Below, one piece after another: positions 4,594-14,375 of a stretch of 36,487 nucleotides of DNA; position 1 is the first letter of the stretch; every line of letters starts with the position of its first letter. The notes under the pieces are model-generated. The model was not told where the DNA came from. It saw only the letters and a program-made list of their open reading frames with translations, and ran no database searches. This stretch comes from Trueperaceae bacterium. GTDB lineage: Bacteria; Deinococcota; Deinococci; Deinococcales; Trueperaceae. The stretch spans positions 1 through 36,487 of the forward strand of contig JAVLCF010000007.1 of NCBI GenBank assembly GCA_031581195.1, in the 5' to 3' direction. A program made the position numbers and the translations under genes.

Positions 4594-5868
4594 TTACTGG
4601 GCGTCGGCGATCTGTTCGTCGATGTCGCGCTGCATGCGTTCGATCGCCTGGTCGAGCGTCAGCTCCCCGACGAACACCTGCGTGAGGCGGTCGCGGGTGG
4701 CGTCGAACACGACGCGGTTGTACTGGTAGCCCTGCAGGGCGTACGCCGCGTCGGCGAGCTTGGGCACCTCCGCCGCGAACTGCGACAGGGCGTCCTGCGT
4801 CGCGGGCAGGTCGGCGTCGAAGTCGACGCCGCCCTCGGCGAGGCCGAGGTGGCCGGGGATGAACAGCGTGCGGCCGTAGAACTCCGCGAGCTGCTCCTCC
4901 TGCGCCAGGAAGTCCATCAGGCGCGCGACCTCTTCGGGGTGGTCGGTGTCGGCGATGCCGACGAGGGCCGCGCCGCCGGGCATGCCGGTGCAGGCGCCAC
5001 TGGGGCCGCAGGGGTTCGGCACGGCCTTCCAGTCGAAGGCGTCCCCGATCAGTTCGGTGAACTGACCGATCTGCCAGCTGCCGGACATGTAGAGCGCCAC
5101 CTGGCCGTTGACGAACTGTTCGTTGCCGGCGACGTAGCTGCCCTGCGAACCGATCCACACGTCGGGGATCATGGTGCCGTCGGCGTGCCAGTCGACCATC
5201 AGTTCCGCCATGCGGCGGAAGCCGTCGTCGGTGACGACCGGGTCGCCGTTCTCGTCGAAGTACTGCGCGCCCATGCTGATCGCGGGGCCGGCCAGGCGGT
5301 GCCCGGTGCGGTCCATCGCCATCGCGAAGACGCCGGTCGCGTCGGCCACCTCGTTGGTCGCCGCCGCCCAGTCCTCCCACGTCGCGCCCTCGCCGGGCAT
5401 CTCGACGCCGGCCTGCTCGAACAGGGTGGCGTTGACGTAGGGGCCGGTGACCGTCAACTGCGTCATGAAGCCGGGGATGGCGTCGGAGCCGTCGGGGCGC
5501 ATCCAGTCGTGGAACGGCCCGAAGTTGGCGTCCCAGTAGCCGGGGTCGTCGAGGTAGGGGCGCAGGTCGAGGAAGTACTCCTGCAGGCCGCCCAGGTCGG
5601 TGACGCGGGCGACGTCGGGGCCCTGCCCGGAGGCCAGCTGCAGCGGCAGCGACTCGAGGATGCCGCTCGAGTACGGCACGACGTCGATGACGACGTCGAT
5701 GTCGGGGTTCTCGGCCTCGAAGCGCTCGACGAGTTCGCTCATGACTTCGGATTCGGAGCCGTCGTCGTACCAGGTCATGCGCAGTTCGGTCTGCGCGAAG
5801 GCGGCGCCGGCCACCAGGGTCAGAACGGCGGCGAGCGCGGCGAGAAGACGTCGGGTGGACTGGGTCAT
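4594..5868 (-). CDS. extracellular sugar-binding protein of ABC importer
   Basis: Solute-binding protein (family 1, MalE-like) that captures the sugar outside the membrane and delivers it to the two permeases encoded downstream. It has 424 residues. Start ATG 5868 gives a typical Sec signal peptide (MTQSTRRLL, a hydrophobic core, then AFA before QTELRM), and GGAGG lies seven bases ahead. The frame remains open further upstream, but that extension lacks a ribosome site and would bury the signal peptide. The mature part starts LRMTWYDDGSE and continues with FEAENPDIDV, both typical of the family. A late cluster (GPSGACTG) sits in the C-terminal lobe region. First gene of the operon behind the promoter at 6015-6043. 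Confidence 0.93.
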   Translation of the reverse strand: MTQSTRRLLAALAAVLTLVAGAAFAQTELRMTWYDDGSESEVMSELVERFEAENPDIDVVIDVVPYSSGILESLPLQLASGQGPDVARVTDLGGLQEYFLDLRPYLDDPGYWDANFGPFHDWMRPDGSDAIPGFMTQLTVTGPYVNATLFEQAGVEMPGEGATWEDWAAATNEVADATGVFAMAMDRTGHRLAGPAISMGAQYFDENGDPVVTDDGFRRMAELMVDWHADGTMIPDVWIGSQGSYVAGNEQFVNGQVALYMSGSWQIGQFTELIGDAFDWKAVPNPCGPSGACTGMPGGAALVGIADTDHPEEVARLMDFLAQEEQLAEFYGRTLFIPGHLGLAEGGVDFDADLPATQDALSQFAAEVPKLADAAYALQGYQYNRVVFDATRDRLTQVFVGELTLDQAIERMQRDIDEQIADAQ

Positions 5869-5890
5869 GCCATACCTCCAGGGTGTCGGT

Positions 5891-5932
5891 CGCCACGGGA
5901 AGGGGGTCGTCCCCTCGCCCCACCCCGTGGCG
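5891..5932 (-). promoter_or_regulatory. nested stem-loop in malE-like leader
   Basis: The predicted 5' leader contains a 9-bp stem (CGCCACGGG with CCCGTGGCG) that encloses a second hairpin (AGGGG with CCCCT). It ends about 22 bases before the start codon, just upstream of the ribosome site. It may influence translation or stability. Seen directly; function inferred. Confidence 0.35.
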
Positions 5933-6014
5933 GTGGCGCGAGGGGCAACGGTCCACGACGCCAAGGGCCCGGGCGGACCCGGGGAACGACGTCTCGACGC
6001 GTTGCGTTGGGGGA

Positions 6015-6043: not shown

Positions 6044-6046
6044 GCG

Positions 6047-6062
6047 GCGCGAACGTTCGCGC
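6047..6062. promoter_or_regulatory. 16-bp perfect palindrome, candidate operator
   Basis: GCGCGAACGTTCGCGC is self-complementary over 16 bp and touches the -35 region of the sugar promoter. A central CG within a symmetric A/T-flanked core resembles LacI-family operators, common regulators of sugar operons. No such regulator gene is in the window. The same 14-base stretch recurs at 31648-31661. Confidence 0.45.
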
Positions 6063-6150
6063 GCCGTGACGGTGCGCTGACGGGCGACCGCCACACTCGG
6101 GGGGCCGGGCGGCGCGCGGGCGGCCGCCCCCGGAAGGGAGGCGCAGGGGT

Positions 6151-7620
6151 ATGGCTCCAGGCGACCTCGCGTCGCTCCGCGTCGAGCTGGATGCGGTCCG
6201 CGAGCAGGTGGTGGCGCAGGCGGAGGCGACGCTCGCGCGCTGGGGTGCGGACGCCGTCCCGGAGCCGCGCCGTGCGTCGTTGCGCAACCTGGCGCACTAC
6301 CTGGCGTTGCGCCGTTACGACCTTCGCGACCTGCAGGACCGCCTGTCGGAGCTGGGGTTGTCGTCGCTCGGGCGGGCGGAGCCGCGGGTGCTGGCGAACC
6401 TCGATGCGATCCGCGCCAGCCTCGCGGCGATCCTGGGCGACGCCCGCGCCGCCGAAGCCCGGCCCGACCCGGCCGCCATGCGGGCGGGGTCCGCCCACCT
6501 CGACGCCGCCCTCGAGGCGCTCGCGGGGCCCGCGCGGGGGGAGCGCACCACCCGCATCCTCGTCACCCTGGACGGGCGCCGCGACGACCTCGCGGCGCAC
6601 GTCGGGCGGCTCCTGGACGCCGGCACCGACCTGGTCCGCATCAACGCCGCGCACGACGACCCCACCACCTGGCGCGGCATGGTCGACGTCGTCCGCGGCG
6701 AAGCGAGGGCGCGGGGCGCGCAGGTACGGATCCTGTTGGACCTCCCCGGCGCCGGCCTCCGGACGCGCATGGAGCAACGCACGAAGCGGCTTCGTCCGGG
6801 CGAGACGGTGCAGCTCCACCGTGCGCCATCGAAGCCGCGCGACGTGGGGGTGTCGGTCCCGGAGGCGCTCGATGCGATCCCGGTCGGCGCGACGGTCGCC
6901 TTCGACGACGGGCGGGTCGAGACGCGGGTCCGGACCCGCGGGCCCGACGCCCTCACGCTGGAGGTGACGCACGCGCGCGAGGGGGGCGACCGCATCCGCC
7001 CGAACAAGAGCGTCGGGGTGCGGGGCGTGGCGTTGCCGTTGCCGTTCCCGACCGACGCCGACCGCGCGGCGCTCGAGGCGCTGGCGGGGCACGTCGACGT
7101 CGTCGGCCTCTCGTTCGTGCGGAGCCCCGACGACGTCGCCTGGCTCCAGGACGCCACGGCGTCGTGGGGGGCGGACGCCCCGCCCGCCCTGGTCGCGAAG
7201 ATCGAGACAGGGGAGGCGGTCGCGGCGCTCCCGGAGATCCTGGCGCAGGGGCTGCGGGGCGGAGCGTTCGGCGCGATGATCGCGCGCGGCGACCTGGCGG
7301 TCGACATCGGCTTCGAACGCCTGGCGGAGATCCAGGAGGAGCTCCTCTGGGTGTGCGAAGCGGCGCACGTGCCGGTCGTGTGGGCCACGCAGGTGTTGGA
7401 GTCGCTGGCGAAGACCGGCCTCCCCTCGCGCGCGGAGATCACCGACGCGGCGATGGCCGACCGGGCGGAGGTCGTCCTGCTGAACAAGGGCCGCTACCAG
7501 GAGCGCGCCGTGGCCCTCCTCGACGACGTCCTGCGGCGGATGGAACGGCACGCGAAGAAGAAGAACCCCCGCCTCCGGGCGTTAGCGAGCTGGCCCGCGT
7601 GGAGCGCACCTCCGCGCTGA
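6151..7620 (+). CDS. atypical pyruvate-kinase-like protein
   Basis: Pyruvate kinase fold, predicted to convert phosphoenolpyruvate plus ADP to pyruvate plus ATP, or a related reaction. It has 489 residues: an alpha-helical N-terminal region (1-130) absent from classical enzymes, barrel domain A with inserted B domain (about 132-465), and no C-terminal domain. Active-site equivalents are present: Arg163 and Asn165 (LVRINAAH), Asp197 and Arg204 (LLDLPGAGLRT), Lys350 and Glu352 (AKIET), Asp381 (IARGD) and Thr413 (WATQVLES). The potassium-site residues Ser and Thr of classical enzymes are Ala167 and Leu198 here. SFVRSPDDV and FDDG are further family marks. ATG 6151 has an AGGGAGG site. It is divergent from the sugar operon. 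Family placement is good; activity as a true pyruvate kinase is uncertain. Confidence 0.78.
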   Translation: MAPGDLASLRVELDAVREQVVAQAEATLARWGADAVPEPRRASLRNLAHYLALRRYDLRDLQDRLSELGLSSLGRAEPRVLANLDAIRASLAAILGDARAAEARPDPAAMRAGSAHLDAALEALAGPARGERTTRILVTLDGRRDDLAAHVGRLLDAGTDLVRINAAHDDPTTWRGMVDVVRGEARARGAQVRILLDLPGAGLRTRMEQRTKRLRPGETVQLHRAPSKPRDVGVSVPEALDAIPVGATVAFDDGRVETRVRTRGPDALTLEVTHAREGGDRIRPNKSVGVRGVALPLPFPTDADRAALEALAGHVDVVGLSFVRSPDDVAWLQDATASWGADAPPALVAKIETGEAVAALPEILAQGLRGGAFGAMIARGDLAVDIGFERLAEIQEELLWVCEAAHVPVVWATQVLESLAKTGLPSRAEITDAAMADRAEVVLLNKGRYQERAVALLDDVLRRMERHAKKKNPRLRALASWPAWSAPPR

Positions 7621-7692
7621 GGACGGGTCGGGCCCGCTCCGCCTCGCGCTCCACGGGGCTCCGGGCGACCCCCCGACCGGATGCGACGGAGC

Positions 7693-7736
7693 GTGACGCA
7701 CCCCTGACGGGCGGGTGACGCGCCCCTGATGGGGGC
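7693..7736. repeat. tandem imperfect 22-bp direct repeat
   Basis: Two adjoining 22-bp units (7693-7714 and 7715-7736) both begin GTGACGC and share CCCCTGA, with 18 of 22 positions equal. They lie between the pyruvate-kinase-like gene and the Dpp-type operon and run into the first possible start of dppB. They could bind a regulator or simply be a local duplication. Confidence 0.5.
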
Positions 7737-8673
7737 CGGCGACACTCGCGCCATGATGCGGTTCCTTGCGGTGCGGACGGTCCGCGGCGTCGCCACCCTG
7801 ATCGCCGTCGTCGCGCTCACCTTCGCCCTGGGGCGCGCGACCGGCGACCCGGTGGCGTTGCTGCTGCCGCAGGGGGCCACCGTGGACGACGTGCTCGCCA
7901 TGCGCGCCCGCCTGGGGCTCGACCGGCCGCTCCCCGTGCAGTTCGGGCTCTACCTCGGGGATCTGCTCCGCGGCGATTTCGGGACGTCGCTGGTCTACAA
8001 CCGCCCCGCGCTCGCCGTCGTCGCCGAACGCGTCCCCGCCACGCTCCGCCTCGGGGCGGCCGCGTTCGCGGCGGCCATCCTGGTGGCGGGACCGCTCGGG
8101 GTGTTCGCGGCGTTGCGTCGCGACACCCCCTTCGACCGCGCGGTGCGGGACCTGAGCCTCACGCTGCAGTCGCTCCCGTCGTTCTTCGTCGGCATCGTCG
8201 GCATCCTCGTCTTCGGGGTGGTGCTCCGCTGGCTCCCGACGTTCGGGGACGCCACGCTCCAGCACTACGTGCTCCCGGTCGCCACCCTGACGTTGCTTCC
8301 TTTGGCGTTGTTGCTCCGCCTCGTCCGCGCCTCGCTCCTGGAGGTGCTTCACCAGGACTACGTGCGGACCGCGCACGCCAAAGGCCTCCCCGTCGGTCGC
8401 GTGGTGACCCGACACGCCCTTCGGACCGCGTTGATCCCCGTCGTGACGATCCTCGGGCTGCAGCTCGCGAACCTGATCGGGGGGGCCGTGATCGTCGAGA
8501 CGGTCTTCGCGTGGCCCGGGGTGGGCAGCCTGGCCGTCGAGGCGATCGGTGGGCGCGACTTCGCGATCGTTCAGACGGTGGTGCTGCTCTCGGGCACCGC
8601 ATTCGTCGTGATGAACCTCCTCGTGGACCTGAGTTACGCCGTGCTCGACCCGCGCGTCGAGGTGGCGCCGTGA
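7729..8673 (+). CDS. peptide/nickel-type ABC permease, DppB-like
   Basis: Inner-membrane permease of the dipeptide/oligopeptide/nickel family. It has 314 residues, six membrane helices, and the DppB-type docking motif DYVRTAHAKGLP followed by HALRTALIPVVT (about residues 212-245). The N-terminus follows the family pattern if translation starts at ATG 7753 or 7756 (MMRFLAVRTVRG). The ATG at 7729 would add eight residues. Neither has a strong ribosome site, so the start is unsure. The last four bases overlap the next gene (GTGA), indicating coupled translation. It heads an operon of two permeases, a Tat-exported binding protein and a phosphodiesterase. No DppD/DppF ATPase genes accompany it. 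Substrate unknown. Confidence 0.9.
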   Translation: MGAGDTRAMMRFLAVRTVRGVATLIAVVALTFALGRATGDPVALLLPQGATVDDVLAMRARLGLDRPLPVQFGLYLGDLLRGDFGTSLVYNRPALAVVAERVPATLRLGAAAFAAAILVAGPLGVFAALRRDTPFDRAVRDLSLTLQSLPSFFVGIVGILVFGVVLRWLPTFGDATLQHYVLPVATLTLLPLALLLRLVRASLLEVLHQDYVRTAHAKGLPVGRVVTRHALRTALIPVVTILGLQLANLIGGAVIVETVFAWPGVGSLAVEAIGGRDFAIVQTVVLLSGTAFVVMNLLVDLSYAVLDPRVEVAP

Positions 8674-9500
8674 GGCGCGTGGGGGCGCGCACCGCCGTCG
8701 CCGCGGCGACGCTCGCGGCGGTCGTGGCGGCCGCGGCCGTCGGTCCGGTCGTGTGGTCGGTCGACCCGACCGAGACGCGCCTCCTCGCCCGCCTCCAACC
8801 GCCGGTGTTCGCGGGGGGGTCGTGGGCCCACCCGCTCGGGACCGATCCGTTGGGGCGCGACGTGCTCGCGCGCGTCCTGTACGGTGCGCGCGTCTCGTTG
8901 CTCGTCAGCGTCACCGCGACGGTGGTCGGGGGCGGCGTCGGGACGCTCGCCGGCCTTGCGGCGGGCTTCGCGTACGGACGGCCGCTCGACACCCTCGTGA
9001 CCTTCCTCGTCGACGTCCAGCTCGCCCTCCCCTTCCTCCTGCTGGCCATCGCGATCGCGTTGGTGTTCGGCAGTTCCCTGCCCATCCTCGTCGCGCTCGC
9101 CGCGCTCGCCGCATGGCCCCCGTACGCCCGCGTGGCGCGCGGCGTCACGCTGGCCCTTCGCGAGCAGGAGTTCGTGCTGGCCGCACGCGCCCTCGGAGGG
9201 CGCGACGTGCACGTGATGCTGCGCCACCTGCTGCCCAACCTCGCGGCCCCCATTGCGGTCCTCGCGACCCTCGGGATCGGCAACCTCATCCTGTTCGAGA
9301 GCGCCCTCGGGTTTCTCGGCATCGGCCTTCCACCGCCCGCCCCCTCCTGGGGAACCATGATCGGGGAGGGCCGCGAGTACCTGTCGCGCGCCTGGTGGGT
9401 CGCCACCGTCCCCGGCGCGTTCCTCGTGCTCGTCACCGTCTCGGTCGGCGTTCTCGGCGATGACTTCCGGGATCGTCTCGACGTCCGTACCGAGCTTTGA
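8670..9500 (+). CDS. peptide/nickel-type ABC permease, DppC-like
   Basis: Second permease of the same importer, 276 residues. The GTG at 8670 overlaps the stop of the first permease as GTGA. The frame is open further upstream, but that reading lies over the previous gene and is spurious. Family marks are LGTDPLGRDVLARVLYGARV near the start of the core, the docking loop (EFVLAARALGGRDVHV, then HLLPNLAAP), and ALGFLGIGLPPPAPSWG near the end. The N-terminal membrane anchor (TAVAAATLAAVV) is followed by a short outer loop. It probably forms a heterodimer with the DppB-like protein and needs ATPases encoded elsewhere. Confidence 0.92.
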   Translation: MRRVGARTAVAAATLAAVVAAAAVGPVVWSVDPTETRLLARLQPPVFAGGSWAHPLGTDPLGRDVLARVLYGARVSLLVSVTATVVGGGVGTLAGLAAGFAYGRPLDTLVTFLVDVQLALPFLLLAIAIALVFGSSLPILVALAALAAWPPYARVARGVTLALREQEFVLAARALGGRDVHVMLRHLLPNLAAPIAVLATLGIGNLILFESALGFLGIGLPPPAPSWGTMIGEGREYLSRAWWVATVPGAFLVLVTVSVGVLGDDFRDRLDVRTEL

Positions 9501-9534
9501 GTCGCCCTCGTTCCCGGAACCGTTTGGAGACGTC

Positions 9535-11070
9535 ATGACCCTGCGCATGCCCCGCCGAAACTTCCTCAAGGGGGTCGCCGCCGCCGGCGCCGCCGCCGGC
9601 GTCGGTCCGTTCCCCACCTTCGCGCAAGCGATGCGGCCCGCGTTGCGGGTCGGCATCAACGCCGAAATCGCGAGTTGGGATCCGCACCACCAGGCCGGCT
9701 CGATCGTCGGCAACCGCTACTACGGCCTGGCGTTCGATCAGCTCGTCCGCAAGGACCTCGACGGGTCGCTGATCCCCATGCTCGCCACCTCCTGGGTCGC
9801 GGACGGGACGACCTGGCGCTTCGACCTGCGTGAGGGGGTCCGCTTCCACGACGGGAGCGTCATGACGGCGGACGACGTGGTGTTCAGCCTCGAGCGGCTG
9901 CTGTTCAGCGAGTACGAGAGCGCGATCCGTCCGACCTTCACGCCCTACGTCCGCGAGGTGCGCGCTACCGGTCCGCTGCAGATCGAGATCGTGACGCCGA
10001 CCCGCGATCCGTTGCTGCCGCGCCGCATCGCGACGCCGTTCGTGGCGATCATGCCGCGTGCGGCGGTCGAGGCCGCGGGGTTCGATGCGGTCCAGACCGC
10101 GCCGATCGGGGCGGGGCCGTACAAGGTGGAGGCGTGGGACGTCGGGAGTTCGGTGACCTTCACCGCCCACGAGGACTACTGGATGGGCACGCCGCCGCTC
10201 TCGGAGTTGACGCTGAACCTGATCCCGGAGAACGCGACGCGCGTCGCGGCGTTGCAGGCGGGCGAAATCGATGTCGCCACGACCCTCCCCCCCGACCTCC
10301 TGGGGCAGGTGGAGCGCACGGCGGACCTGCAGGTGGCCGACGTGCTGCTGTACAACTTCATGCACGTCTACTTCAACACCGTCGAGGGCGTCACGGCGAA
10401 CCCGGACGTCCGCCGCGCCCTTGCGCTCGGGATCGATCGCGGCCTGATCGCCGATGCCCTGTGGGGCGGCCGGGTGGCGGTCATGCGGGACTACTACCTG
10501 CCGAGCGAGTTCGGGTACGACCCCGACCGCGCCCCGTTCCCCTTTGAACCCGACGCCGCCACGGCGGCGCTCGATGCGGCGGGGTACGCGGGGGAACCGC
10601 TGGCCTTCACGCCGCCCGCGACGTACTACACGAACGGGCGTCTGGTCACCGATGCCATCAACGAGATGTGGCAGGCCATCGGGGTGAACGTCGAGTACGA
10701 ACCGCTCGAGCTGGCGCAGTGGGCGGAGCGCAGCTTCGCGCGCGCCAACGTCGCGACGCTGCAGAGCTTCGGGACGGGGGGCGACCCCGCGACCGGCTTC
10801 ATCGCCGAGTACCTCGCGGAGAACTGGATCGCGCAGTACTACCCGGCGTCGGACCGCTTCAAGGCGCTCGCGCGGGAGGCGGCGTCGACCCTCGACGAGG
10901 ACGTGCGGTACCGGAACTACCGCGCGATCGCCGACATCCTCGATCGCGACGTGCCGTTCACCCCGCTGTACCAGAGCGTGGAGTTCTACGGCATGCGGAG
11001 CGACGTGCGGTGGCGCCCGCACCCCAACTTCTTCCTGGACTTCCGTCCCGACGCCCTCGAGATCGGCTGA
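9535..11070 (+). CDS. Tat-exported ABC substrate-binding protein (family 5)
   Basis: Extracytoplasmic binding protein of the DppA/OppA type, 511 residues. ATG 9535 is chosen because GGAG precedes it and it gives a twin-arginine signal (PRRNFLK at residues 6-12, a hydrophobic Ala/Gly core, then FAQA). An earlier in-frame ATG at 9460 would lie inside the permease gene. The family signature is clear: LATSWVADGTTWRFDLREGV, then FHDGSVMTADDVVFSLER. Later GVTANPDVRRALALGIDR is the usual hinge-side segment. Tat export implies folding in the cytoplasm before export, possibly with a cofactor. It lies 34 bp after the DppC-like gene and 4 bp before the phosphodiesterase gene, so one transcript is likely. 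Confidence 0.92.
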   Translation: MTLRMPRRNFLKGVAAAGAAAGVGPFPTFAQAMRPALRVGINAEIASWDPHHQAGSIVGNRYYGLAFDQLVRKDLDGSLIPMLATSWVADGTTWRFDLREGVRFHDGSVMTADDVVFSLERLLFSEYESAIRPTFTPYVREVRATGPLQIEIVTPTRDPLLPRRIATPFVAIMPRAAVEAAGFDAVQTAPIGAGPYKVEAWDVGSSVTFTAHEDYWMGTPPLSELTLNLIPENATRVAALQAGEIDVATTLPPDLLGQVERTADLQVADVLLYNFMHVYFNTVEGVTANPDVRRALALGIDRGLIADALWGGRVAVMRDYYLPSEFGYDPDRAPFPFEPDAATAALDAAGYAGEPLAFTPPATYYTNGRLVTDAINEMWQAIGVNVEYEPLELAQWAERSFARANVATLQSFGTGGDPATGFIAEYLAENWIAQYYPASDRFKALAREAASTLDEDVRYRNYRAIADILDRDVPFTPLYQSVEFYGMRSDVRWRPHPNFFLDFRPDALEIG

Positions 11071-11074
11071 TCGG

Positions 11075-12322
11075 ATGGCGGGATTGATCCTCGTGATGAT
11101 CGATGGGGTGTCGGCGGATACCTTCCGGATTCGTCGTGGGCGCCTGGCGAACCTGGCGTCGCTCGCGGCCTCCGGGTTGGTCGTGGAGCGCCTGTCCGCC
11201 GCCGTGCCGGGGACGTCGCTCCCGGGGCGCGCGTCGATCCTGACGGGCGCCCCCGCGCGGCGCAACGGGGTCTACGGGAACCGCCTGCTCGACGAGGCGC
11301 ACGGAGCGTTCCGGTACGCGAGCCCGTACGACGTGCGCCTCCCGACGCTGCCCCGCCTCGCGCGGGAGGCGGGGTCGACGACCGCAGCCGTCGGGATGGG
11401 CATGGTGCGTCCCGAGGACGTCGACGTGTTCGCGCACCCGTGGTGGGTGGGTTCGTTCGTGCAGCGCGCGCGGGACGCGCGCCCCGAACCGCTCGCGAAC
11501 GGCTGGGAGAACGTCGCGGGCACGCTCGACCCGAGCGGGGCGCTGGCCGAGGCCGCCGCGAAGGCCGGCGTCCCGGATGCGTTCGATGCGCTGGACCTGG
11601 ACGATGCGAGCGTGGCGGCGATGGCGGGGTTTCTCGGCGACCGTCGGGTCGCGGAGTGGGTCGGGGCGCTCGCGACGAGCGACGACGCCCCCGACCTGAT
11701 CGTCACCGAGCTGCTGATGACCGACACGGTGCAGCACCGCAGCGGGTACGACACGCCCCTCTCGCAGTGGACGACGACGCTGATGGACGGCCTGATCGGG
11801 GACCTGCTCGCGCGCCTGCGTGACGCCGGCCGCGAGGATGCGTACGACCTGATGATCCTCTCCGATCACGGCCACGGGCCGGTCGAGCGGGCGTTGCGGC
11901 CCGACGTGCTGCTCCCGGGGGAGACGTTCGTGAGCGAGGGGGGGCTGCTGCACGTGCTCACCCCCGATGCGCCGACGCGTGAGCGCGTGACCGGCATCCT
12001 GGCGGAGGTCGGTGCGCAGGCCTACCCGACCGCGTACCTCCCCGACGACCTTCAGGGGGTGCTGTCGTCGTTTCTCGCGCCCGACGGCGTGAGCTTCGAG
12101 CACGATGGGGAGGCGCCCGACGGGCCGTGGGCGACGCCATCGGCGGTGAGCAGTCACGGGAAGCGTCCCGGCCATCCCGACGACGATCGCTTCCTGCTGC
12201 TTGCGGGGCCCCGCATCGAGGGGGGCGTCGTCCCGCGCGCGGAGGCGGCCGACGTGGCGGCCACGGCGGCGCGCCTCCTCGGGCTCGACGTCGCCCCGTT
12301 CGAGGGGACGCCGCTCGTCTGA
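11075..12322 (+). CDS. alkaline-phosphatase-superfamily phosphodiesterase (NPP-like)
   Basis: Type I phosphodiesterase/nucleotide pyrophosphatase-like metalloenzyme, 415 residues, predicted to hydrolyse a phosphodiester or phosphonate ester. Superfamily landmarks in order are MIDG (metal Asp, residue 9), GTSLPGRASILTG (nucleophile Ser/Thr at about 47-48), MTDTVQH (Asp/His ligands, about 212-217), LSDHGHG (Asp/His, about 268) and SSHGKRPGH (metal His, about 361). There is no signal peptide or membrane helix, so it should act inside the cell on imported material. Four bases separate it from the binding-protein gene, and it is the last gene of the operon. Phosphonoacetate hydrolase and phosphopentomutase relatives share the fold. 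The substrate cannot be named from sequence. Confidence 0.82.
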   Translation: MAGLILVMIDGVSADTFRIRRGRLANLASLAASGLVVERLSAAVPGTSLPGRASILTGAPARRNGVYGNRLLDEAHGAFRYASPYDVRLPTLPRLAREAGSTTAAVGMGMVRPEDVDVFAHPWWVGSFVQRARDARPEPLANGWENVAGTLDPSGALAEAAAKAGVPDAFDALDLDDASVAAMAGFLGDRRVAEWVGALATSDDAPDLIVTELLMTDTVQHRSGYDTPLSQWTTTLMDGLIGDLLARLRDAGREDAYDLMILSDHGHGPVERALRPDVLLPGETFVSEGGLLHVLTPDAPTRERVTGILAEVGAQAYPTAYLPDDLQGVLSSFLAPDGVSFEHDGEAPDGPWATPSAVSSHGKRPGHPDDDRFLLLAGPRIEGGVVPRAEAADVAATAARLLGLDVAPFEGTPLV

Positions 12323-12356
12323 CGCGCCCCGTCGCGTTTCGACGCAGCGGCGTCCG

Positions 12357-12384
12357 GCGCCCGCGCGCATCGACGCGTGGGCGC
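12357..12384. terminator. stem-loop between convergent genes
   Basis: A 10-bp stem (GCGCCCGCGC with GCGTGGGCGC, one G-T pair) with an 8-base loop sits in the 82-bp gap where the phosphodiesterase and nuclease genes converge. No T-run is present. Its position suggests a shared terminator. Confidence 0.4.
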
Positions 12385-12404
12385 GCGCGACGGCGCGCCG
12401 GAGG

Positions 12405-14375
12405 TCAGGGGCCGTCGTCGAAGGCCAGCCCGACCCGGACCGGGTCGTGGTCGCTGGCGCGGAAGGGATCGGGGGCGTACAGGTCCGCCTCGGCGGGACC
12501 CTTGTAGGTCAGGTCGTAATCGATGAGGTCGACCTCCGGGGCGTTGATGGGCCACACCGCCGCGCCGGTGACGCGCGGCCCTCCGGCCGGCGTCCCGGTC
12601 GCCAGGTCGGGGTGCGCGACGGCGTGATCGAGCCGGCCGAAGCGCCCGTCGAACACGAAGGTCGTGACGGGGTCGGGGCCCTCGCTCGCGAGGAGGTCGA
12701 CGGGGTCGTCCGGCGTCCTCGGGGTCGCGTCGGGCCCGGCGAGGAGCGCGGCGATGGGGTCCTCCTTCGGGTAGGCGTTCAGGTCCCCCAGCACCAGCCA
12801 GGGGGCGTCGACGCCGGTGGGGGCCTGCTCGAGCCAGGCGAGGAGGGCGCGGACGCCGTCGGTGCGGGTGCCGGCGCAGGAGCCCTGCAGCGGTCCGTCG
12901 TCGCCGGCGCCGCAGGACGAGCCCTTGCTCTTGAGGTGGTTCACGACGATCGTCACCGCCCCGCCTCCGCCGACGGAGGAGCGGTCGGCGGGCACGAAGC
13001 TCCAGGCGAGGGCGGGACGGTTCTTGCCGCGGCCGGTGGCGCGCGGGTCGGTGAAGGCGACGTCGTCGAGGACGGCGGGGGTCCCGACCGGCGCGACGAC
13101 GTCGGGGCGGTAGAGGACCGCCTGCGCGATCGCGTCGGTGCCCATCGCGCCGACCGCGACGTGGCGCCAGGGGTGGCCGGTGGCGTCGCGCAGGCCGGCG
13201 GCGAGGTCGGCGGCGGCGCGGTCGTTCGGGTCGTTCTGCAGTTCGACGAGGCCGAGGACGTCGGCGTCGAGGGCGGCGAGGGCGGCGACGAGCTTGGCGC
13301 GTTGGCGCGCCAGCTCGCGGGCGTCGTCCGCCCCGCGGCATTCCATCCCGCCGGTCGGGCCGCAGTCGTCGCCGACGTCGACGAAGTAGTTCTGGACGTT
13401 GAGGGTGGCGACGACGACGTCGGGGGGCGTCCCGTCCGCGGCGCGCACGTCGGGGGGCGCCGACGGAATGGGGGCGCGGCGGAGGTGCTCCGCGGGGGCG
13501 GTGGGGTGGATCCGCCAGGCGCCGTAGGCGTAGTGCAGCATGCCGGTCGCGCCCCGCACCGCGTCGCCGCCCCGGAAGCGGTGCTCGAGGCCGAAGACGG
13601 TGCCGTCGGGGTGCCGGACGGGGCTGGGGTTCTGGTCGTTGCGGCCGTCGTCGAGGGTGATGCGTCGGGGTTCCTGGGCGGCCTCCCAGGCCGCGGCGCG
13701 GGGGTCGTCGGGGGCGAAGCGGTGCGTCGCCTGGATCGGGCGGTCGGCGCCCTCCTGCGGGAGGGCGAGGACGACCTCGCCGAACCGGTCGTAGTTGTAG
13801 TACTCGGCGATCGCGAGGGCTTGGGGGAGGCGGACCGGCATGCCCTCGAGCGCCTCGCGGGCGGCGTCGTCGGCGGGGAGGCGGAGGGGGACCGGCGCGG
13901 GGGGCGCGACGCGCGCGCCGCAGTCCACGACCTCGCGCACGCCGGTCAGCGTCGTCATGCCGTACGCCTCGGTGATCGTCCCGGCCGCGCGCACGACGGC
14001 GCCGACCGACACCGAGGCGGCGCTCTCGACGAACAGGCCCTCCGACGTCGCGGGGTCGCCGTCGTCCTGGCCGGGGGGCGTGTGCAGGTAGAACCCGCCG
14101 AGGTCCCGCCGGAACCGATCCGTGGGGTCGCCCTGGAAGGCGGCGGTGACGACGCCCTGCACCGTGGCGCGGCGGTTCTCGAGGGGGGAGGTCGGGCCGT
14201 GCCCCTGGACGGCGTGCAGGGGCGTCGGGTCGGGCGCCGCGCCGGGCCGGCAGCGGGGGTCGAGGGCGGGCGGGTCCTGCGCGCAGGCGCTCGCGAGGAG
14301 GGCGGCGGCTCCCAACGCAGCGACGGCACGCGTCGTGACGGGAGCGGCCCATCGAGGGTGAGGCGCGTCGCGCAT
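12405..14375 (-). CDS. lipoprotein extracellular nuclease, ExeM/NucH-like
   Basis: Endonuclease/exonuclease/phosphatase-fold enzyme of the secreted ExeM/NucH type, predicted to degrade extracellular DNA. It has 656 residues. A hydrophobic N-terminus ends in a plausible lipobox (LLASA-Cys31). Residues 55-155 look like the OB-fold domain found in these nucleases (RRATVQGVV, then GGFYLHTP and EGLFVE). The catalytic domain is 318-650: LNVQNYF (Asn326), LVELQND (Glu379), NHLKSKGSSC (His480), LGDLNAY (Asp531, Asn533), RLDHA (Asp583, His584) and SDHDPV (Asp642, His643). Paired cysteines fit an exported protein. It is a single gene, minus strand, between two importer clusters. It could supply nucleotides or phosphate. 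Which exact nuclease subtype it is remains open. Confidence 0.85.
   Translation of the reverse strand: MRDAPHPRWAAPVTTRAVAALGAAALLASACAQDPPALDPRCRPGAAPDPTPLHAVQGHGPTSPLENRRATVQGVVTAAFQGDPTDRFRRDLGGFYLHTPPGQDDGDPATSEGLFVESAASVSVGAVVRAAGTITEAYGMTTLTGVREVVDCGARVAPPAPVPLRLPADDAAREALEGMPVRLPQALAIAEYYNYDRFGEVVLALPQEGADRPIQATHRFAPDDPRAAAWEAAQEPRRITLDDGRNDQNPSPVRHPDGTVFGLEHRFRGGDAVRGATGMLHYAYGAWRIHPTAPAEHLRRAPIPSAPPDVRAADGTPPDVVVATLNVQNYFVDVGDDCGPTGGMECRGADDARELARQRAKLVAALAALDADVLGLVELQNDPNDRAAADLAAGLRDATGHPWRHVAVGAMGTDAIAQAVLYRPDVVAPVGTPAVLDDVAFTDPRATGRGKNRPALAWSFVPADRSSVGGGGAVTIVVNHLKSKGSSCGAGDDGPLQGSCAGTRTDGVRALLAWLEQAPTGVDAPWLVLGDLNAYPKEDPIAALLAGPDATPRTPDDPVDLLASEGPDPVTTFVFDGRFGRLDHAVAHPDLATGTPAGGPRVTGAAVWPINAPEVDLIDYDLTYKGPAEADLYAPDPFRASDHDPVRVGLAFDDGP

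Follow-up and report, generated by a model that had tools for sequence, protein, structure and literature searches.

A Divergent Short-Form Relative of Pyk2 That Probably Acts as an Accessory Pyruvate Kinase in a Trueperaceae Bacterium

The open reading frame at positions 6151–7620 (forward strand) of the window, by which we mean the whole stretch of 36,487 nt that was analyzed, quite probably encodes an accessory pyruvate kinase: a short-form member of the Pyk2/PRK14725 family, gained beside a classical enzyme and probably in need of little or no monovalent cation. The 489-residue product is a divergent pyruvate kinase of a known, already named, and partly characterized bacterial family, mostly ordinary and not a new kind of enzyme; its one unusual point, as read from the alignment, is a private loss of both the Lys/Arg at the cation site and the motif of the lid hinge.

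Domain Layout and Family Placement

The frame opens with an ATG preceded by GGGAGG and has a coding-type GC composition by codon position (0.80/0.52/0.95). Pfam places the pyruvate kinase barrel (PF00224) at residues 132–445 (E = 1.1e-42; 146.7 bits against a gathering score of 30) and gives no match to the C-terminal domain PK_C (PF02887), which is present in the second, classical enzyme that the genome encodes. An AlphaFold model (mean pLDDT 91.7, pTM 0.91) has helices at residues 3–31, 40–53, 59–66, 80–94, and 107–125, followed by the barrel and the B domain, and can be aligned over about 350 columns with pyruvate kinases of solved structure, at a TM of about 0.6. The anatomy given in a preliminary description of this DNA, a pyruvate kinase barrel with a helical N-domain of about 130 residues and no C-domain, is thus borne out by both Pfam and the model. 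Along the forward strand, the N-terminal helical domain (residues 1–131; 6151–6543), placed by the model and by profile searches, carries a conserved GLSSLGRxE motif and has no Pfam match in this protein; it is followed by the first barrel part (residues 132–205; 6544–6765) with R163, N165, D197, and R204, as seen in Pfam, alignment, and model, by the B or lid domain (approximately residues 206–285; 6766–7005; alignment and model), and by the B-to-A hinge (7006–7023), where in the alignment KSVGVR replaces KGxNxP.

Of the NCBIfam models, NF011314 (PRK14725, "pyruvate kinase") matches best, at E = 9.2e-147; the score of 489.9 bits lies below the curated cut-off of 642, as do those of the other short forms scored. 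The model of the classical enzyme, TIGR01064, yields 190.1 bits against a cut-off of 306.4, and the C-terminal PK_C is missing. The Pyk2-type family in the wide sense, a grouping of our own, combines a GLSSLGRxE N-domain with a pyruvate kinase barrel without a C-domain, and the 489-residue protein has both. Its long forms (611–643 residues as trimmed) carry about 115–140 extra residues between what are residues 206 and 228 here, a stretch absent from the B domain of our protein; its short forms have 489–520 residues as trimmed. With PRK14725 the protein shares an N-region of about 120–130 residues, the barrel, the lack of a C-domain, and the same catalytic residues, and the 11 long forms have Ala at the position of Ser76 of the rabbit enzyme (11/11) and Leu (ten) or Val (one) at that of Thr113; the differences are the missing extra stretch before the B domain, a score of 490 against 642 bits, Gly in place of Lys117, and the changed hinge. 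The short-form relatives, annotated as pyruvate kinase and found in the source phylum, Cyanobacteria, and Pseudomonadota, in part on plasmids, resemble it in length (about 490–520 residues), N-domain, catalytic residues, and absence of the extra stretch, whereas the full-length ones carry Lys or Arg at position 117 and keep the hinge residues G, N, and P. The 29 short-form relatives compared are 40–48% identical to it, and no full-length relative above about 49% identity was found, with short segments reaching 66–80%.

In a tree of 47 rows (the 489-residue protein, 37 of the 50 full relatives aligned below, and nine classical enzymes), the Pyk2-type family forms a clade that excludes the classical enzymes with support of 100/100. 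The long forms cluster, and our protein falls among them (97/89) despite lacking their extra stretch; we do not trust this placement, because no end branch in the tree is longer than its own (1.44; median 0.52). Literature searches for PRK14725 by name and for cg3218 together with pyk2 returned no paper, and one for pyruvate kinases without a C-domain gave nothing relevant among the matches listed.

The characterized relative is Pyk2 of Corynebacterium glutamicum (NCgl2809; Chai 2016), for which the accessible part of the report gives an N-terminal extension of 120 residues, barrel segments at 128–213 and 346–606, and no C-domain (PMC5112673); this is the long-form layout. Among 14 control genomes, two match PRK14725 at E 1e-90, C. 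glutamicum and Deinobacterium, and from the length and layout of Pyk2 we infer that the genome passing the cut-off is indeed that of C. glutamicum and that its matching gene is Pyk2. The same text describes Pyk2 as a true pyruvate kinase, both by assay with phosphoenolpyruvate (PEP) and ADP and by complementation, a pyk1 pyk2 double mutant regaining growth on ribose; as a hexamer in gel filtration; and as cotranscribed with ldhA, with a 14-fold induction without oxygen (PMC5112673). Though devoid of a C-domain, it responds to FBP as an activator and to ATP as an inhibitor, and the authors infer a distinct allosteric mechanism, to which the accessible text assigns no location (PMC5112673). These assays are the reason to regard an enzyme of such anatomy as a pyruvate kinase, and as a regulated one; the idea that a missing C-domain leaves the enzyme unregulated, put forward in the preliminary description, does not follow. 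The Pyk2-type family matters here in that a pyruvate kinase can evidently dispense with its C-domain and yet stay under FBP control, as in C. glutamicum.

By analogy with the hexameric, FBP-activated Pyk2, the helical N-domain may stand in for the C-domain in assembly and perhaps in control by FBP or ATP, and the domain, with its conserved residues (N46, Y50, R54, and GLSSLGRxE), would be a testable candidate for the seat of FBP control. As a known fold the N-domain found no convincing match in PDB, Pfam, Foldseek, or VIA searches: the best hit among PDB sequences was an untrustworthy 19 residues of a designed protein (E = 0.002), Pfam gave a weak match in one of 32 members (DUF7939, E = 0.0029), and the structure searches reached E = 2.9 in Foldseek and Z = 5.4 in VIA, a value common for helical bundles.

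Active Site and Cation Dependence

The protein was aligned with 55 relatives, of which five fragments (L003, L014, L015, L016, and L056) were left out; 42 of the remaining 50 full relatives are less than 90% identical to one another. R163, N165, D197, R204, K350, E352, D381, and T413 align with the corresponding residues of solved enzymes and are invariant in all 50, which have the N-domain as well, so that the catalytic residues named in the preliminary description are kept at the positions it gave them. The codons for K350 to E352, the catalytic Lys and the divalent-metal Glu, lie at 7198–7206, that of the divalent-metal Asp D381, in the ARGD motif, at 7291–7293, and that of T413, in the WATQ motif, at 7387–7389 (all forward strand, from the alignment). 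We take E352 and D381 to hold the divalent metal, K350 together with R163 and R204 to stabilize the phosphoryl group in flight, and T413 to lie on the proton path to the enolate. The protein would most likely move the phosphoryl group of PEP to ADP, with the B domain closing as a lid, possibly at an altered rate because the hinge has changed.

At the cation site, Ala167, Leu198, and a Gly (G202), the residues already pointed out in the preliminary description, occupy the positions of Ser76, Thr113, and Glu117 of the rabbit muscle enzyme. The Ala and the Leu are family-wide, and Gly202 alone is private to the 489-residue protein: the relatives have Ala (48/50) or Gly (2/50) where the Ala167 codon stands (6649–6651, forward strand), Leu (47), Ile (two), or Val (one) at the position of Thr113, and Lys (46) or Arg (four) at that of Glu117. 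The alignment accordingly pairs the loop L198-P199-G200-A201-G202 (6742–6756, forward strand) with a consensus that is mostly L-[ASG]-G-P-K. The hinge departs in the same manner, with S, G, and R at three positions where 50 of 50 relatives have G, N, and P; the Lys/Arg at 117 and the hinge G, N, P, both absent here, are common features of the group and are not known as requirements. Compensating frameshifts, considered as a source of the odd cation loop and hinge, were rejected, as the other two frames of both stretches hold no family motif.

Sequence signatures for K+ dependence and independence have been proposed, with one exception to them in the accessible text (PMC12428139), and the protein fits neither: of the dependent pattern T113/K114/E117/T120, its L198/P199/G202/T205 matches the last Thr only, and of the independent pattern L113/Q114/K117/(L,I,V)120, the Leu only. 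The crenarchaeal members of the K+-independent cluster also break the latter rule. In the accessible part of the work on the enzymes of Pyrobaculum aerophilum and Thermofilum pendens, these K+-independent proteins have neither Glu nor Lys at 117, as is the case here; enzymes with Ser or Val at this position were measured as K+-independent, Gly occurs in the same branch, and the Pyrobaculum enzyme shares the Ala and Leu at two K+-ligand positions (PMC4374775). Unlike our protein, the Thermofilum enzyme is described with A, B, and C domains and hence has a C-domain (PMC4374775). Cation independence of the 489-residue protein is therefore plausible. Neither the Ser and Glu typical of K+-dependent enzymes nor the Lys typical of K+-independent ones is present at its cation site, so that it would probably run, like the crenarchaeal enzymes, on little or no monovalent cation.

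The opposite reading, in which the protein binds and needs K+ or any monovalent cation because the sequence rule fails in the Pyk2-type family, is the strongest rival and seems to us possible, though unlikely. It draws on Pyk2 itself, which the accessible report describes as strictly dependent on both Mn2+ and a monovalent cation, K+ being best and NH4+, Na+, and Li+ giving 73%, 51%, and 38% of it (PMC5112673). By analogy with the 11 of 11 long forms over the PRK14725 cut-off, Pyk2 probably has Ala at the Ser76 position and Lys at the Glu117 position; K+ independence is thus not simply readable from sequence, because Pyk2 needs K+ though its long-form relatives all have Lys117. Further, the rabbit E117A enzyme is cited as remaining fully K+-dependent (in PMC4374775), and two of the four K+ ligands, N165 and D197, are kept here. 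Against this stand the alteration of the other two ligand positions (A167 and L198), although Leu198 alone need not matter because the ligand at the Thr113 position is a main-chain oxygen; the K+ independence of the Pyrobaculum enzyme with the same Ala and Leu (PMC4374775); and the weak selectivity of Pyk2 among cations, which could in part be an effect of ionic strength of the kind discussed in the accessible parts of PMC12428139 and PMC8835810. Taken together, the family consensus of Lys117 and the K+ requirement reported for Pyk2 appear at odds with the sequence rule, and the 489-residue protein is a natural variant at exactly this position. A more far-reaching version of the cation-independent reading, which we offer only tentatively, is that it represents a bacterial pyruvate kinase that has given up both ways of filling the cation site, K+ bound with the help of Glu117 and the built-in Lys117, and would work without a charge there, the changed lid hinge compensating and the helical N-domain replacing the C-domain as the regulatory part across the Pyk2 family; working enzymes with a chargeless position 117 have been described for the Crenarchaeota (PMC4374775).

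Divergence of the Barrel and Hinge, and Barrel-Degenerate Paralogues

The divergence of the protein is concentrated in the first barrel part and the hinge and is small elsewhere. In the first barrel part its identity to the family is 0.398, where the family mean is 0.521, and in the hinge it is 0.206 (mean 0.570), the lowest other member averaging 0.423 there; the corresponding values are 0.377 and 0.393 for the N-domain, 0.275 and 0.338 for the B domain, and 0.553 and 0.604 for the second barrel part. It departs at 16 of 122 near-invariant positions (at least 90% identical), the three hinge residues and the cation-site Lys/Arg among them, and activity may be reduced or lost on account of these changes.

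Such changes raise the alternative of a catalytically weak or dead member, regulatory or decaying, with a fold that endures despite drift in the hinge and the cation loop. The long end branch (1.44) and the low identity of the hinge favor it, and so does a paralogue in two cyanobacteria that shares the N-domain, has a degenerate barrel, and evolves under purifying selection (dN/dS 0.10); we nevertheless consider it improbable, given that none of the eight catalytic residues is lost, conservation of the second barrel half comes close to that of other members, the frame is open with a coding-type composition, and a relative exists that departs at more near-invariant positions (L005, 24/126; a further one, L013, is about equal with 15/123).

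These paralogues came from a search of 98 cyanobacterial genomes with an N-domain profile, which matched 18. In 16 the match is a family gene already found by the PRK14725 search (that of G111 with an in-frame stop), and in the other two (G180 and G116) it is a 369-residue protein whose barrel lacks the KIET, ARGD, and WATQ motifs (L123:3950–5059 and L124:3967–5076, respectively, both reverse strand); the N-domain was not seen outside the Pyk2-type lineage in these 98 genomes. The dN/dS of 0.10 between the two 369-residue proteins is near the values for a pair of members with intact motifs (0.108) and for a neighboring amidase-like gene (0.089) and higher than that for a neighboring MTA-phosphorylase-like gene (0.023); because of it the pair resembles a pseudoenzyme under selection more than a gene in decay.

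Genomic Context, Second Pyruvate Kinase, and Distribution

The source genome (2.45 Mb, 95% complete) encodes two proteins with a pyruvate kinase barrel. The preliminary description had proposed a search for a second, classical pyruvate kinase, and one is present: a protein of 475 residues (L001) with PK_C and without the N-domain, the start of whose gene overlaps the end of an enolase gene, identified as such by sequence reading. The two share the barrel fold and the catalytic motifs, with 35% identity over the barrel; the classical enzyme keeps Ser76 and Lys117, and its cation loop reads LQGPKIRV, the K+-independent signature in the accessible text of PMC12428139. Of 37 family-bearing genomes searched with PF00224, 35 have another, classical-type match (partial in G112). 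In the remaining two (G261 and G312, of the phylum of G113) the family gene, split into two matches, is the sole barrel gene at E 1e-5 and may be the sole pyruvate kinase; other routes from PEP to pyruvate may exist there, because both genomes match PPDK_N. Among the 60 relatives searched, ten have a family-type match (in G052 only two short fragments), and nine of these also have a classical-type match (partial in G029), the exception being G032 (80% complete). A relative of the same order carries the family gene as two overlapping pieces in different frames (G051:C5:67104–68524), through either a frame change or an assembly error.

As scanning of the neighboring frames and comparison with same-genus genomes show, the gene is flanked on the left by a solute-binding protein gene of an ABC transporter (SBP_bac_1; 4594–5964, reverse strand), transcribed away from it, which forms the left side of a variable site, and on the right by a peptide-type ABC permease gene (7729–8673, forward strand), the first of the downstream transporter genes. 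In the same-genus genome G003 the transporter genes are collinear (DNA identity 81% on one side and 76% on the other), with a short-chain-dehydrogenase-like frame in the place of the pyruvate kinase; in G004 a left side of 92% identity runs to position 6045 and the match resumes at 12416. The stretch missing at the corresponding site of G004, 6046–12415, holds the pyruvate kinase, the peptide-type ABC transporter genes, and a phosphodiesterase-like gene. None of the four same-genus genomes searched (80–98% complete) has the family gene, which points to a lineage-specific gain or to repeated loss elsewhere; the gene was probably acquired horizontally.

That the enzyme acts on another enol-phosphate or phosphorylated acid, as the preliminary description had suggested, is very improbable: changes unique to this protein around the active site and in the lid hinge would speak for it, as would a position upstream of peptide-type transporter genes and then a type I phosphodiesterase-like gene, with no lactate or glycolysis gene recognized among the 20 neighboring frames scanned, yet the catalytic residues are unchanged, Pyk2, the measured enzyme of the same architecture, uses PEP and ADP in the accessible report (PMC5112673), the same transporter genes stand without a pyruvate kinase gene in G003, and positive support for another substrate did not emerge. 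The neighborhoods gave no conserved operon from which a function could be read: leaving aside the gene itself and overlapping frames, no neighbor family is common to more than four of 34 neighborhoods (some of them short), and the only one present in four is the large and common short-chain-dehydrogenase-like family (L005:7808–8560, L039:10112–10870, L100:8180–8890, and L102), whose recurrence may be chance for this reason. The frame in the place of the pyruvate kinase in G003 (L138:4334–5347) looks similar.

The distribution of the family is patchy: PRK14725 is matched at E 1e-90 in 13 of 111 genomes of the source phylum, 20 of 146 of the phylum of G111 (Thermosynechococcus), and 11 of 299 of the phylum of G113 (Chromatiales). 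Phage cargo was rejected as an origin, since none of the 20 phage records that match does so over 80% of the protein; among viral contigs, P0001 retrieved no relative, and the family profile picked up two members, both carrying the usual Lys and one truncated where its contig ends. Plasmid-borne members occur in Skermanella, Nostoc, Marinobacter, Sphingobium, Novosphingobium, Paracoccus, Thiodictyon, and Hymenobacter. On two Nostoc plasmids (L038:6698–10126 and L044:6722–10254) a short-form pyruvate kinase gene is followed by genes for L-lactate dehydrogenase and phosphoglycerate mutase, an order that is not found in the window and that recalls the ldhA–pyk2 pair of C. glutamicum.
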